Source of the DNA: a virus
IMG/VR virus record: IMGVR_UViG_3300044464_000005
Span: 1-38,585 of that record
DNA: 38,585 bases
Direction: 5' to 3' (one strand)
The notes beneath the pieces were generated by a model. It had not been told where the DNA came from. It saw only the letters and a list, made by a program, of their open reading frames with translations, and searched no databases. A program made the position numbers and the translations under genes. Positions 1,053 to 17,905 of this stretch are shown in pieces. How positions within the stretch are numbered: position 1 is the stretch's first letter; each line of letters opens with the position of its first letter.

Positions 1053-1796
1053 GTGAAAAAGTGGTTCACGCGCGCCGGGCTGTTGCTTTTGCTGGTTTCG
1101 CTGGGCTGGTACTCGAAGACGAAATACTGCCAAGAGTTCCCCAACGAGCCGATCTGCGTCGCGCCGACTCCGGAGCCATCGCCTACGGCAACACCTACCC
1201 CCGTGCCGACTCCGACCGCGACTCCTGAGCCGACACCGAGCCCCTCGCCGGAACCGACGCCGGAACCGACGCCCACTCCTGGCCTGACCCCGTGCCCCAA
1301 GACGCCATCCGAGGGCGCCTACGTCTACCTCAACAACAAGCGGTACGGGAACGGGATCGACTCGACGGTGAGGATTTACGGCGATCAGGAGATGTGCATG
1401 TTGATCCACGGGGTAGCGGTCAACGACTGCCACTTCGAGGGGATGCAAGGCGACCGCGCGGCCTGCGAGATGTGGCTTGTCAAGAGGCAGACGGGCGCCT
1501 CCGGTGGCTGTCCCGTGTGGCAGTACAGCGAGGATGCACGGAGCGGTTTCGAGTGCCATCAGGCACCCAGCGATCCAGCCAGTTGCGATCACTACGGCGA
1601 TCCGGTCTATCGAGACGACCCGCAGACGCATGACGTGTTCGAGGGGCGCCCGGCAGAGTGCGGCCTTCAGCGCGACGCGGCTGGAGATCCGATGGCGGGT
1701 TTTTTCGTGATTCTGCACGGGCGAGTGTACGGGCGCGCGTGTCTCCCGGATTACAGTGGCTGCGGTCCATGGGTTCCAGGCAAGGATCTTCAGTGA
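1053..1796 (+). CDS. Membrane-anchored or exported Pro/Thr-rich protein
   Basis: The 247-residue protein starts at GTG 1053 behind GGGAGG (1041-1046). Residues 1-22 (KKWFTRAGLLLLLVSLGW) form a basic-plus-hydrophobic signal anchor. Residues 41-82 are a PTPEP/PTPTATP linker of the kind that spans an envelope, and residues 83-247 form a Cys-rich globular domain with about 14 cysteines, likely disulphide-bonded outside the cytoplasm. I know of no named function. The protein ends CGPWVPGKDLQ, and a second version of this ending lies after the HNH gene (2431-2469), so the gene's 3' end appears to have been replaced when the HNH gene arrived. The stop overlaps the HNH start (GTGA). Confidence 0.7.
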   Translation: MKKWFTRAGLLLLLVSLGWYSKTKYCQEFPNEPICVAPTPEPSPTATPTPVPTPTATPEPTPSPSPEPTPEPTPTPGLTPCPKTPSEGAYVYLNNKRYGNGIDSTVRIYGDQEMCMLIHGVAVNDCHFEGMQGDRAACEMWLVKRQTGASGGCPVWQYSEDARSGFECHQAPSDPASCDHYGDPVYRDDPQTHDVFEGRPAECGLQRDAAGDPMAGFFVILHGRVYGRACLPDYSGCGPWVPGKDLQ

Positions 1797-2434
1797 GAGC
1801 CTGCAGGCGCGGTCACAACTTCGATGAAACGGTTGAACGGATATGCCTTGAATGCCGTCGCATCAAGGCCAGATCCCCGGAGGGTCGAGCGAAAGCACGT
1901 AAGTACGAGAATGAGCACGCGGACAAGAGGCTCTCGTACAAGCGGAAATACTACACGGCCAATCCATCACAAACGCTTGAGCGGAATAGGCGCTGGCGCG
2001 ATGCAAATATCGACTCTGCGCGCAAGGCACAGCGAGAAGCCTACAGGGCGAACCCCGAGAAAACCCGCGAGGCCGCCCGTGAATACTATCGCGCCAACAC
2101 GATCAAGGCACGAGAGAAAGTTCGCGAGTGGCGGAAAGCCCACCCACTGAAGAAGCGCCAGTACGAGGCTTCCCGAAAGGCTCGGAGCCGATGTAATCCA
2201 ATCGAGAGGTTCTCAGAAAGCGATTGGATGCAAGTCGTAGAGTTCTACGGCGGCTGCTGTGCCTATTGCGGAATTACGAAGTGGGAACAGATGGATCACG
2301 TTGTCCCCCTGGCATCGGGTGGTAGGCACGCGCTAACCAACCTCGTACCGGCATGCGCTCACTGCAATCAAAAGAAGCACACGGCAACATGGGAGCCTCG
2401 CATGAGGCATCCACTAATGGAGAGTGCGGCATGA
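1793..2434 (+). CDS. HNH endonuclease with N-terminal zinc knuckle
   Basis: The protein has 213 residues. I chose GTG 1793 because it overlaps the upstream stop (GTGA) and begins at a complete zinc-binding module, CRRGH(N10)CLEC. Residues 30-135 are helical and basic with repeated R.Y..N / R.WR.AN patterns, a probable DNA-binding arm. The C-terminal HNH domain shows CAYCG, then DHVVPLASGG with the catalytic DH, then HALTNLVPACAHCNQKK, so the metal-binding and catalytic residues look intact. It resembles the HNH at 15573, especially in the HNH core. It is probably a free-standing homing endonuclease rather than a phage core gene. Its insertion next to the C-terminal coding end of the previous gene is treated as a finding. 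Confidence 0.88.
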   Translation: MRACRRGHNFDETVERICLECRRIKARSPEGRAKARKYENEHADKRLSYKRKYYTANPSQTLERNRRWRDANIDSARKAQREAYRANPEKTREAAREYYRANTIKAREKVREWRKAHPLKKRQYEASRKARSRCNPIERFSESDWMQVVEFYGGCCAYCGITKWEQMDHVVPLASGGRHALTNLVPACAHCNQKKHTATWEPRMRHPLMESAA

Positions 2435-2469
2435 GTGGACCGTGGGTTCTGGGGAAGGACGGGCAATGA
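2431..2469 (+). pseudogene. Orphan C-terminal end of the Pro/Thr-rich protein
   Basis: ATG 2431 overlaps the HNH stop and reads MSGPWVLGKDGQ then TGA. This matches the end of the gene at 1053-1796 (CGPWVPGKDLQ) at 8 of 10 residues over GPWV.GKD.Q, with a stop at the same place; the 33 aligned bases differ at about 10 positions, mostly third codon positions. The simplest reading is that this is the original 3' end of the 1053 gene, separated from its body by the HNH insertion. Translation as a 12-residue peptide is possible but not needed. Confidence 0.6.
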
Positions 2470-2470
2470 C

Positions 2471-2737
2471 ATGGCGATGTACATCCCGTCCCTCGCCGAC
2501 TTCGGAGACGACGCGCTCCCTCTCGATCGTCTCATTCACCGCAACCGACACTCGCACTGCAAAGTCCAGGCGCTCTACGCCGACCCGATGACGGAGCCGC
2601 AGCGGTTCCGACTCCTCCAGGCCCACTGCGCCAAGAGGGGACGCCGCCACGAGTTCGTCATCGAGTCCACCGACGGCCTCAAGTGCCTGTGGTGCGGGAT
2701 CGTGAAGGCGACACCAAGAGAGGAGATCAGAACGTGA
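2471..2737 (+). CDS. Hypothetical protein with a C-terminal CxxC
   Basis: The 88-residue frame starts at ATG 2471, two bases after the orphan C-terminal peptide; ATG 2477 is an alternative. GGGGAAGGA at about 2451-2459 may be the ribosome site. It contains HSHCK near residue 30, an HC pair mid-protein and GLKCLWCG near the C-terminus, so it could bind zinc. I do not recognise a family. The stop overlaps GTG 2734 of the next short gene (GTGA). Before the HNH insertion it would have followed the 1053 gene directly. Confidence 0.6.
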   Translation: MAMYIPSLADFGDDALPLDRLIHRNRHSHCKVQALYADPMTEPQRFRLLQAHCAKRGRRHEFVIESTDGLKCLWCGIVKATPREEIRT

Positions 2738-2850
2738 AGCTACCGATCGTTTGGATGGATACCGAGACGGGAGGATTGCGCCCCGAGCACGCGGACGTTC
2801 GCCTTTCCATCGAAGTCGCCAAGCGGCTGCTTCAGGAGATGAAGCGTTGA
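2734..2850 (+). pseudogene. DnaQ-like exonuclease reduced to its ExoI motif
   Basis: GTG 2734 overlaps the upstream stop, and the 38-residue frame begins MKLPIVWMDTETGGLRPEHA. IVWMDTETGGL is a good match to the ExoI motif (DxETxGL) of DEDD 3'-5' exonucleases, and it sits at the N-terminus, where that family has it. The rest of such a protein (ExoII and ExoIII motifs, about 150 further residues) is absent. The remaining 20 residues form a charged helix ending EVAKRLLQEMKR. I infer an internally deleted remnant, possibly still translated because its stop is coupled to the next start (TTGA). Confidence 0.5.
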
Positions 2851-3026
2851 GCGCAGAGACGCACCCGATCGACCCGCGGCTCCCGGTGATCGCCCAGATG
2901 GCCGCGGTGATCTACGCCGAGAAGGTGATCTACAACAGCAATAAGGAATCGCGGAGGCTCTCTGTGGACGAGGCATTCCTCCTCTACGGAGACATCGCCA
3001 TTCGGCTCGCGGAGAACGACCGATGA
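2847..3026 (+). CDS. Small hypothetical protein (59 aa)
   Basis: TTG 2847 overlaps the stop of the exonuclease stub (TTGA) and gives a 59-residue protein with the stretch IDPRLPVIAQMAAVIYAEKV followed by DEAFLLYGDIAIRLAENDR. It is soluble and largely helical. I do not recognise a family. It stops within the ATGA that starts the YqaJ exonuclease, so it belongs to the recombination operon and may be an accessory or regulatory peptide of it. The TTG start is supported only by the overlap pattern shared with its neighbours. Confidence 0.55.
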   Translation: MSAETHPIDPRLPVIAQMAAVIYAEKVIYNSNKESRRLSVDEAFLLYGDIAIRLAENDR

Positions 3027-14436: not shown

Positions 14437-15576
14437 ATGAAGAAGCTCATCCTCGGGGCGCTGGCACTGTCCGCGCTCCTTCCTGTCGTTTCGGCGAACG
14501 CTCAGGAGATCCGCAAGACGGCGACGCTCGCCTACGCCTGGGACATGGACGGCGAGGCGGCCGACGACAATCAAGTCGTCGAAGCGGCCGGCGGAGTCAT
14601 AGTGGACAACGGGACTTCGGTCGCCGCCGCCAACTACACGATCACCGCCCAGCCCGATACCTGTCGCCTCCTCAACCTGACGATCTCCGACACGAACATG
14701 GGGGTCGGGGCCGGGACGATCACGGTGAACGGGATCGGCTGTCTCGGTGGGACGAAGACGTGCACATGGTCGGCGTGGACCGCCGCTGACGACGACGGCG
14801 TGAAGACGCTGACGTGCACGGACGGGATGGACGCCTACATGAAGGAGGTCACGAGCATCACGACCGGCGTGATGACCGGGGAGTCCGACGAGTATTTCCT
14901 CCTCGGCTATGCGGGCGTGAACTCGGTGAACGGGTGGCCGATGTACGGGCGGCTGACGCAACTCGGCCCGCTCGGAGAACAGGGGGTCGATCCCTTCGGC
15001 TCGTACCCGATCAACCTCCCGATCACGACCTCGGCGGCGTCCTCGACGACGGTGACGAGTGTCGGGTCGGCCGGCTCGTTCCAGAACGTAGCAGTAGGCG
15101 ACCTTCTCCTGATCCCACTCGGCGGCAAGACCTACGAGCGCAAGGTGACGGCCAGGGCCTCCGCGAACTCGATCACCGTAAATCAGGCGATGAACATCCC
15201 GACGGCAGGCGTCACCTTCGCCTACAAGAAGTTCTGGTTCTCGACGAACCCGGCGCAGGAGATGTTCATCCCCGTCTCCGGCTTCGACACCCTCCTCGTG
15301 AACTGGTCGGTGGATGCGAACGCGGATACCGGGGGAGTCGTGACGCTCCTCCAGTGCACCGACTCGAAGCAGCCTAACTTCCCGACGACCCCGTGGGTGC
15401 AGATGAGTACGTTCACCACCGCCACCGGAGTCGCGCAGGCCCCGATGACGGAGAGCGTCGATCTGACACAGCTCCCGTACCAGTTCTGCCGGATGGGCTT
15501 CCGATTCGGAACCGGGGACGATATTGATGGAGCTGACGAAAGTCTGAACGCCAGCATTGTCCTCTATAGGAAATGA
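14437..15576 (+). CDS. Secreted or virion-surface protein with Sec signal peptide
   Basis: The 379-residue protein starts at ATG 14437 behind a strong AAGGAGGAA. Residues 1-22 are a classic Sec signal (MKKLILGALALSALLPVVSA) with a likely ANA/Q cleavage site. The mature part is beta-rich and Thr/Ser/Gly-rich, with five or more cysteines (CRLLNLTISDTN, CLGGTKTC) that suggest disulphides. The pattern LNLTISDTN...GTITVNGIGCLGG resembles repeated phage structural proteins. The first 18 bases of coding sequence are identical to those of the - strand gene starting at 35092. A Sec signal on a protein coded among virion genes is unusual. The stop overlaps the HNH start (ATGA). Confidence 0.65.
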   Translation: MKKLILGALALSALLPVVSANAQEIRKTATLAYAWDMDGEAADDNQVVEAAGGVIVDNGTSVAAANYTITAQPDTCRLLNLTISDTNMGVGAGTITVNGIGCLGGTKTCTWSAWTAADDDGVKTLTCTDGMDAYMKEVTSITTGVMTGESDEYFLLGYAGVNSVNGWPMYGRLTQLGPLGEQGVDPFGSYPINLPITTSAASSTTVTSVGSAGSFQNVAVGDLLLIPLGGKTYERKVTARASANSITVNQAMNIPTAGVTFAYKKFWFSTNPAQEMFIPVSGFDTLLVNWSVDANADTGGVVTLLQCTDSKQPNFPTTPWVQMSTFTTATGVAQAPMTESVDLTQLPYQFCRMGFRFGTGDDIDGADESLNASIVLYRK

Positions 15577-16145
15577 AGACCTGCATCACCTGTCGGCAAC
15601 CGAAACCGCTGGAGGAATTCTTCCGTCGCACTGCCAGCAGGGACAGCCATGCGCCGCTTTGTAAGGCGTGCCACGGAGAGTACAAGCGCAAGTGGAATTC
15701 GGAGAACCGTGGCAGAGTCAGATCGAAACATCTCGTGCGGTCACGGTTGTACGTGATGAGGAATCCGGATACGCGGAGGGAGACAATGCGAGCCTACCGC
15801 GTAGCCAATCGCGAGAAGGTGAGGGCGTACAACGATGACTACGCCGCCAAGAATCCGCTGGTTCGCATCCAGATCAAACAGCGATACTGGGCGCGGCGCA
15901 AGGCATTGCCGTGTGAGCGAATCGATGTTGCCATGTTTGAGGCGAAACTTGCCGACTACGGCTTCCTCTGTGCCTATTGCCAAGATCGTCCGTATGAGCA
16001 CTGGGATCACGTCGTGCCCATTTCCAAGGGTGGTCCGCACGCGCTGAGCAATCTCGTTCCGTCGTGCGCTCACTGTAATCACACCAAGTGGGCACATCTC
16101 TGGCCGGCTCCTGCGCCGCCAGTGATGATTGCGTCGCCCTCTTAG
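15573..16145 (+). CDS. HNH endonuclease with N-terminal zinc ribbon
   Basis: The 190-residue protein starts at ATG 15573 (ATGA overlap). CITC and CKAC near residues 4-33 form a zinc ribbon. A basic helical arm with repeated R...N...R.Y patterns follows, then the HNH domain: CAYCQ, WDHVVPISKGG and HALSNLVPSCAHCNHTKW. The catalytic DH and the two CxxC metal pairs are intact. It is clearly paralogous to the HNH at 1793, down to the shared bases TGTGCCTATTGC at the first CxxC. It is probably a homing endonuclease inserted between two secreted-protein genes; no duplicated host-gene end is visible here. Confidence 0.88.
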   Translation: MKTCITCRQPKPLEEFFRRTASRDSHAPLCKACHGEYKRKWNSENRGRVRSKHLVRSRLYVMRNPDTRRETMRAYRVANREKVRAYNDDYAAKNPLVRIQIKQRYWARRKALPCERIDVAMFEAKLADYGFLCAYCQDRPYEHWDHVVPISKGGPHALSNLVPSCAHCNHTKWAHLWPAPAPPVMIASPS

Positions 16146-16157
16146 TAGGAGATCCAG

Positions 16158-17354
16158 ATGAAGAAGCTACTGCTCGCTGTCGTGTTCCTGCTCTCCGCCG
16201 CGTCGGGATGGGCGCAGCAGAGCGAGTGTCCTCCTCTCTGCTACTACCCTCCTGAGCATCTCAGCCTCACGGGCGGGACGCTGACGGGTAACGTCGAGTT
16301 GCGCGACCCGAGCCAGCTCGCTGGTGAGTCCCTGACGAATCCGAACCTGACGGGTGGAGCGAGCTGGACGCAGACCGCGGACTTCGCTCTGGCCGCCAAT
16401 GCCGCGACGTACACGCACGCCACTGGCGCGGGCAGCTTCCAGCAGACGAGCGCGGCTGGGGCTATCCCGTGGGCGCAAGCAGGGTCTAGCGGGTGGTTTA
16501 CCTTCACCTATACGGTGAGCGCCGTCACGGGAGCGCCGGTCTGCACGATCCCGAGCACGTTTGCCGTGGACGCTCAGACCCTTGCCAGTGTGGCTGGGGC
16601 GTACAGCGTGACGTTCCAGGCGAAACTCGTGCCTGCGGTGGGTGACTTCCAAGTCTCCTGCACCTCTGGCGCTGCGGCCACGATCACCTTCGACACGCTG
16701 AGCCTCAAGCAGATCACGGGCGGGACGTTGACGGTGGGCGGCCGAATCAGGGTAGGTGACGGGACGCTGGCCCTCCCGGCGATAGCGCCGGTTTCGGAAA
16801 CTGGCACCGGGATCTACTTCACGGACGGGCGCATCCTGTTCGGGACCAATGCGATTGCCCAATGGACTCTTGAGGGCACTCAGTTATACCCAACAGTGAC
16901 CGATGCCACCAACCTCGGGGCAACATCAAAACTGATCACGATAGGCTATTTCTCTCGCGGTTTCCAGGGCTCCAAGAGCAAGGCCCTCACCGACGCCGCC
17001 GCGGCGACACCATTCATGACTGTCGCAGTGCCTACAAATGGATGGGTCGGAGGCGAGTTGATCTGGACCGCGACGAGTCTCTCCGGGGCGGATCAGCTTG
17101 CCACCCAAGGTGCGATTCGGTTTGCTGGTGCCACGACCGGCGCCACGCCTGTCTGTACTGTGGGGGTGATTGGCACCGATCTCGCGGCTGTCTCGGGTGG
17201 AGCGAACACGCTGGTCTGCACATGGTCCAACGCCGTAGCGGCTCAGACGTGCGCGGTCTCGGTCACCTGCTCAAATAATTTGGCGGGGACGCAGGCGATT
17301 ACTCTGTACGGTCGTGCAGACCTCCCCATAGCAGCAACGCTGGTCTTCCCCTGA
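16158..17354 (+). CDS. Signal-peptide tail-fibre-like protein
   Basis: The 398-residue protein starts at ATG 16158 after GGAGATCC. Residues 1-20 (MKKLLLAVVFLLSAASGWAQ) form a Sec signal with a GWA/QQ site. The rest looks like a phage fibre: GGTLTGNVELRDPSQ, a Ser/Thr-rich jelly-roll-like middle, then the common fibre motif pattern in GDGTLALPAIAPVSETGTGI and NLGATSKLITIGYFSRGF, ending in a beta-rich tip. Fibres are normally assembled in the cytoplasm, so the signal peptide is odd. It lies between two nuclease genes and before the tailspike. The stop overlaps the next start (TGATG). Confidence 0.65.
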   Translation: MKKLLLAVVFLLSAASGWAQQSECPPLCYYPPEHLSLTGGTLTGNVELRDPSQLAGESLTNPNLTGGASWTQTADFALAANAATYTHATGAGSFQQTSAAGAIPWAQAGSSGWFTFTYTVSAVTGAPVCTIPSTFAVDAQTLASVAGAYSVTFQAKLVPAVGDFQVSCTSGAAATITFDTLSLKQITGGTLTVGGRIRVGDGTLALPAIAPVSETGTGIYFTDGRILFGTNAIAQWTLEGTQLYPTVTDATNLGATSKLITIGYFSRGFQGSKSKALTDAAAATPFMTVAVPTNGWVGGELIWTATSLSGADQLATQGAIRFAGATTGATPVCTVGVIGTDLAAVSGGANTLVCTWSNAVAAQTCAVSVTCSNNLAGTQAITLYGRADLPIAATLVFP

Positions 17355-17905
17355 TGGGAGTCTGTAGTCATTGCCACACGAGGCCGGTTTTGGATGGGCG
17401 AAAGAGTTGTGCTCGGTGTACTCACAACTCACGCAGGAGTGAACGCTCAAAGGTGCTGAGGAAGACTGCGCTGCTGTGCTCGCGGTGTGTGACCTACCCG
17501 CCGATGGTCGGCTCCAAGGCATGTGCCCGATGCACTCAGTACATGCGCGAATACAGGGTTCGCAATCTCGACAAGATCAAGGCGACAGCGAGGCGATTCA
17601 GCGCACGAAACCGTGAGGCCCTCCGAGACAGGCAGAGGATGATGCGCTACGGGCTAAGTGCCAGTGCCCTGCGTGAGTTGAAGGAAAAGCCACGGTGTGA
17701 TGCGTGTAACCACCCCTTTGATTCCGTATGCGGCAGCCAGCACTCGCGGCACATTGACCACGACCACGCAACCGGGGCAGTGCGCGGAGTTCTCTGCCAG
17801 CAGTGCAATCTCGCCCTTGGCTACCTCGAAGATTCACCCCAGCGCGCGGAGGCGTTGGCAGCGTACGTTCGGCGGCACGTCAGGCTACTGACCTCGGTGG
17901 CATAA
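17354..17905 (+). CDS. Recombination endonuclease VII family protein
   Basis: The 183-residue protein starts at ATG 17354 (TGATG overlap). The C-terminal half is a good match to T4 endonuclease VII-type HNH nucleases: YGLSASALRELKEKPRCDAC, HIDHDHATGAVRGVLCQQCN and LGYLEDSP near the end. The His-Asp-His core and the CxxC pairs are intact. The N-terminal half has two extra CxxC zinc pairs (CSHC/CARC and CSRC/CARC). T4 Endo VII resolves DNA branches before packaging; stand-alone copies between fibre genes, as here, are more often mobile endonucleases. Both roles remain possible. Confidence 0.88.
   Translation: MGVCSHCHTRPVLDGRKSCARCTHNSRRSERSKVLRKTALLCSRCVTYPPMVGSKACARCTQYMREYRVRNLDKIKATARRFSARNREALRDRQRMMRYGLSASALRELKEKPRCDACNHPFDSVCGSQHSRHIDHDHATGAVRGVLCQQCNLALGYLEDSPQRAEALAAYVRRHVRLLTSVA

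Follow-up and report, generated by a model that had tools for sequence, protein, structure and literature searches.

An HNH endonuclease gene between two versions of its neighbour's 3' end in a phage genome: a probable homing element carrying a recoded gene end

How an endonuclease gene can settle in the coding end of another gene is the question raised by a stretch of phage DNA of 38,585 nucleotides (IMG/VR record IMGVR_UViG_3300044464_000005, positions 1-38,585), hereafter called the window. Its first 900 positions hold long, overlapping repetitive frames rich in Ala/Tyr and in Ala/Ser/Arg (AAYAAYAAA...; ASAAARAAASAAARDAAWDAAW). The initial annotation had described an HNH gene flanked by two versions of the C-terminal coding end of its neighbour, and this description was confirmed, coordinates included (Table 1). 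The neighbour, referred to below as the host gene, matched no family in a Pfam search of 1053-1796; its product ends in GCGPWVPGKDLQ (1758-1796 with the stop codon; in the longer form, ...DYSGCGPWVPGKDLQ). The HNH reading frame is open since 1658, and the natural start is most likely the GTG at 1793, which overlaps the host stop (GTGA). In a profile search the HNH protein scored 47 bits against PF01844 (cut-off 21.4), and its domain has the catalytic and zinc-binding residues characteristic of phage HNH endonucleases; the protein is predicted to cleave DNA and to mediate homing. The second gene end is a 12-codon ORF, MSGPWVLGKDGQ, whose ATG overlaps the HNH stop codon at 2432-2434 (ATGA). We refer to the upstream copy as the joined end and to the downstream copy as the stranded end.

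Table 1. Features of the HNH locus and of the two control loci in the window
Feature	Position	Strand	Description
Host gene	1053..1796	+	247 aa; N-terminal hydrophobic segment, Pro/Thr-rich stretch, Cys-rich C-terminal domain
Joined gene end GPWVPGKDLQ and stop	1764..1796	+	Taken as element-borne and recoded
AAGGA within GKD codons	1782..1786	+	6 nt 5' of the HNH GTG; likely the HNH ribosome-binding site (putative)
HNH endonuclease gene	1793..2434	+	213 aa; PF01844 E 2.8e-12, phrog_1035 E 1.5e-18
HNH domain CAYCG...DHVVPLASGGRHALTNLVPACAHCN	2258..2383	+	Residues 156-197; motif intact
Stranded end, 12-codon ORF	2431..2469	+	Homologous part 2437-2469; read as native end
AAGGA within stranded GKD codons	2455..2459	+	11 nt 5' of the next ATG
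Next gene	2471..2737	+	88 aa, ATG 2471
Second HNH gene (HNH2)	15573..16145	+	Overlaps upstream stop (ATGA); internal control
Third endonuclease gene (HNH3; Endonuclease_7)	17354..17905	+	Overlaps upstream stop by 1 nt (TGATG); internal control

We compared the two ends in detail. When the window was scanned in six frames with GPWVPGKDLQ and its stop, the stranded copy matched at 9/11 positions (stop counted), and no site elsewhere, apart from the query's own copy, exceeded 5/11. Between 1764-1793 and 2437-2466, 10/30 nucleotides differ; three codons are identical, five differ synonymously and two non-synonymously, in agreement with the earlier remark that the differences are mostly synonymous. 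At the DNA level the repeat is modest, its local alignment score being equalled in 4/300 shuffles, so that its significance lies in a protein match that is in frame and located where it would be expected. The GC content of the joined and stranded ends is 0.567 vs 0.667 and their GC3 0.40 vs 0.70, although 30 nt are too short for a firm call as to which copy is foreign.

To find close relatives of the window phage that lack the HNH gene, we searched viral contigs, plasmids, phages and GTDB genomes. The queries were the host gene and, separately, its C-terminal domain, an alignment of two sequences, the YqaJ nuclease encoded nearby and degenerate nucleotide patterns for the gene end; they recovered only the same species and a single contig, L035. 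A portal protein search found no phage relative. The same arrangement is present in two near-identical IMG/VR contigs (L032 and L033), which belong to the same phage species as the window and are therefore not independent evidence. The window and L032 are otherwise more than 99% identical, and they differ by a strongly divergent patch at 2666-3003 and, within the host gene, by six substitutions in the 12 bases 1677-1688; these are apparent recombination tracts flanking the HNH gene on either side. Twenty loci considered as host-gene homologues were rejected, their match being confined to the Pro/Thr-rich stretch.

The sole true homologue from a degenerate GPWVxGKD pattern search is L035, an AT-rich phage contig whose protein is 65% identical to the host gene product over the C-terminal domain. 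No HNH gene is present in L035, and its single end, CGPWVAGKDKS and a stop, lies 2 nt before the next gene. An AAGGA stands 12 nt 5' of the next ATG, an arrangement like that of the stranded end in the window (11 nt). The expectation that an HNH-less relative would run from the gene body straight into one end thus holds in this one homologue. Since the motif occurs once in this HNH-free contig, it represents the natural end of the gene. L035 differs by 11/30 nt from each window end, so that neither direction of transfer is favoured. No close HNH-free relative of the window phage was detected among viral contigs, phage records, plasmids and GTDB genomes, and the exact 2437-2469 sequence was not found joined to a gene body in the collections searched. 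Outside the species of the window phage, these collections yielded no HNH-bearing homologue whose pre-HNH end could be compared with the joined end.

We then looked at other HNH loci. A first test for repeated neighbour ends covered 20 phage HNH loci and three loci of the window, and a broader one covered 58 HNH loci (24 phage records, with some redundancy and relatedness). HNH2 and HNH3 were negative for duplicated neighbour ends, which counts against the homing-element reading, as does the length of the duplication in the window (33 bp only). An N-end score of 34 for HNH2 came from a short match (SAASGWAQQSE) and carries no weight, and the scores of four other loci (L076, L104, L105 and L117) were rejected because they came from Arg/Ser-rich out-of-frame translations. 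In Xanthomonas phage FoX1, an HNH-type protein encoded beside the small terminase gene (L052:595-1167) carries the name glycolate dehydrogenase GlcF in its annotation, which seems to be a mistake. The 58-locus scan yielded three independent parallels with close HNH-free relatives: Streptomyces phage Forrest, Mycobacterium phage SpikeBT, and the Streptomyces phages Samisti12 and EGole.

In Forrest (L124), the product of the host gene, putatively macro-domain-like by motif, ends in GLAGGDWNVIESIINRTLTLRDVSVTVYDL; the HNH gene follows, and then GLAGGDWNVVESIINRTLTLRDVDVTVYDLP and a stop. In the HNH-free phage Gilson, this second version is joined to the gene body, and over 1194 bp the stranded end of Forrest and its flank share 99.9% identity with Gilson. 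In codons 1-128 the two host genes differ at 3/384 nt, vs 33/99 nt over codons 129-161 (23 synonymous and three non-synonymous codons). Forrest contains an abrupt, mostly synonymous divergent block whose onset lies at the insertion point. Between its recoded end and the HNH start, a perfect-looking promoter (TTGACA-N17-TATGAT) is present at L124:1298-1326.

The locus in SpikeBT (L122, reverse strand) concerns a DnaB-like helicase ending in ADPSGRLYAELKFKGETMSIKDYG, with the HNH start codon within the helicase stop (TTGA). The C-terminal tail of the SpikeBT HNH protein is the native helicase end, ADPSGRLYAELKFDGSKMEIKDF. Compared with Nepal, the helicase end preceding the HNH gene differs at 18/69 nt, with five amino-acid changes, and the stranded end at 6/69 nt, all synonymous. 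Nepal and PascalRango lack the HNH gene, and their helicase gene, with its native end, directly precedes a glutaredoxin gene.

In Samisti12 and EGole the layout is mirrored: a gene for a DUF2637-type membrane protein has its native 5' end (MKTPNVKRILDWRGSISFGVVLIVALALSWW) stranded upstream, and past the HNH gene its body carries another 5' end (MKYLKKFKVGWLGFAIVLVVSLALSWW). The stranded 5' end is identical to that of HNH-free Peebs at 93/93 nt, and the replacement end differs from Peebs at 25/57 nt over its last 19 codons. The four HNH-free phages examined (Peebs, Cross, Warpy and Coruscant) all have the native 5' end. Among the tblastn matches listed, records other than Samisti12 and EGole align only from residue 35 or 36 and thus lack the replacement 5' end. 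The stranded native 5' ends, with a few insert codons, are annotated as 42-aa genes (Samisti12 gp30, L047:1580-1708; EGole gp31, L066:437-565).

The loci have a common anatomy: on one side of the HNH gene, the body of the gene entered is fused to a divergent version of one of its ends, and the native version lies on the opposite side. Where close HNH-free relatives are available, at the three resolved loci, they have a single copy of the end; it agrees with the stranded copy and differs from the joined one, which marks the joined copy as an imported, apparently foreign end; at the level of sequence comparison, insertion with end replacement is shown at these three other phage loci. GC content is lower in the joined than in the stranded end in 4/4 cases (the window, Forrest, SpikeBT and Samisti12/EGole). 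From the anatomy and the three resolved parallels, we infer that the upstream copy in the window is foreign too. The window is a fourth, less resolved case beside the cultured-phage parallels.

We consider it likely that approximately positions 1764-2434 form a homing element, made of the HNH gene and a recoded host-gene end, that would restore the gene and probably resist cleavage. The HNH gene would be start/stop-coupled to the recoded 3' end that precedes it. According to this model, the nuclease would cut alleles lacking the element, close to where the native end encodes GPWV, and the break would be repaired from an element-bearing phage during co-infection. The recipient gene would thereby gain the recoded end, its protein staying full length, and the HNH gene would enter behind that end. 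The native end, displaced downstream, would supply the right-hand homology and a ribosome-binding site for the next gene. Because the AAGGA of the stranded end precedes gene 2471, it probably keeps this gene translated, which may be why the stranded end has survived. The synonymous differences could shield the element's own copy from cutting, and the window element may be mobile at present.

A longer replacement, in which the HNH gene brought much or all of a foreign host-gene copy by long co-conversion and the stranded end arose on the right side as an accident of illegitimate joining, seems improbable to us. It would fit the GC3 profile of the host gene, which is about 0.9 at 1293-1443 and drops to some 0.6 in the final 300 nt, and the divergent tract of SpikeBT, which begins about 80 nt upstream of the stranded part. 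However, in Forrest the onset of divergence coincides with the onset of the stranded end, and three unrelated genes share the layout. If the gene end had first been duplicated in tandem and an HNH gene had later entered between the copies, the layout in the window would be identical, but this would not account for relatives that match the stranded rather than the joined copy at the three resolved loci, a sign of an imported end; moreover, the collections searched yielded no HNH-free homologue in which the end is doubled, L035 having one, and we regard such a history as very unlikely. That the downstream ORF resembles the gene end by chance or convergence, merely through a shared ribosome-binding AAGGA, is barely credible: it is true that the codons GGN AAG GAY contain an AAGGA upstream of the following start codon in both copies and in L035, and that the DNA-level similarity is modest, but GPWV lies outside AAGGA and the 9/11 match is in frame right behind the HNH stop.

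The preferred reading, that the HNH gene came with its own version of the host gene's 3' end, had already been put forward in the initial annotation. It is supported by the two in-frame ends around an intact HNH gene, by L035 and, through sequence comparison, by the three parallels, but the design has precedents (PMC7282813, PMC3630166): the architecture is already known outside phages, in yeast and in fungal mitochondria. WHO elements occupy the yeast aldolase gene FBA1 in Torulaspora and Lachancea; in experiments the WHO endonuclease cleaved the sensitive allele and left the resistant one uncut, and the proposal is that every homing event exchanges the 3' end (PMC7282813). They share with the window an endonuclease gene with a replacement host 3' end upstream and the older 3' end displaced downstream. 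In WHO elements, as would by analogy hold for the phage ones, allele divergence is confined to the replaced part, and resistance is conferred by sequence differences. WHO endonucleases are, however, of the HO/VDE type and lie in tandem clusters in the yeast nuclear genome, whereas the phage elements have an HNH nuclease, are single insertions, occupy several unrelated target genes and include 5'-end versions. Given its HNH nuclease and unrelated phage target, the window element is not a WHO member and resembles these elements in working only.

The mORF elements of fungal mitochondria, known from Allomyces atp6 and from Glomus atp6, atp9, cox2 and nad3 (PMC3630166), likewise have a host gene that runs into a foreign C-terminal coding end, together with an endonuclease ORF and a native end stranded downstream. 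Their stranded end is nearer to relatives than the joined end, as in Forrest, SpikeBT and Samisti12. Their nucleases are LAGLIDADG or GIY-YIG enzymes, they are mitochondrial and some inserts are in frame with the host gene, whereas the window has a phage HNH nuclease and falls outside this class. A 5'-end version is not described in the available text of the papers on yeast WHO and mitochondrial mORF elements (PMC7282813, PMC3630166). Free-standing phage HNH homing endonucleases, such as the T4 mob genes (PMC2988022) and mycobacteriophage HNH genes (PMC3706429), share the nuclease class, the setting and, as far as the available text of these papers goes, break-repair homing with co-conversion of flanks. 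In that text they are described as intergenic or far from the cut site, with no mention of a replacement gene end and a stranded native end (PMC2988022, PMC3706429). No phage precedent for an HNH gene with a replacement gene end was found in the open-access literature, as available, including mycobacteriophage and lactococcal HNH surveys.

Homing nucleases are usually held to avoid damage by their location, in introns, in inteins or between genes. The element described here enters coding sequence, the cost being met with a spare gene end, a simple way for mobile nucleases to invade essential phage genes such as the SpikeBT helicase gene. On balance, we lean towards the view that phages hold an unrecognised class of homing elements, composed of an HNH nuclease and a recoded replacement end (3' or 5'), a natural analogue of recoded-rescue gene drives that would have originated repeatedly at unrelated genes. 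Pairs of cultured phages differ by the element (SpikeBT/Nepal, Forrest/Gilson and Samisti12/Peebs). Such elements would account for odd tiny ORFs adjoining HNH genes and for abrupt, mostly synonymous blocks of divergence at gene ends.
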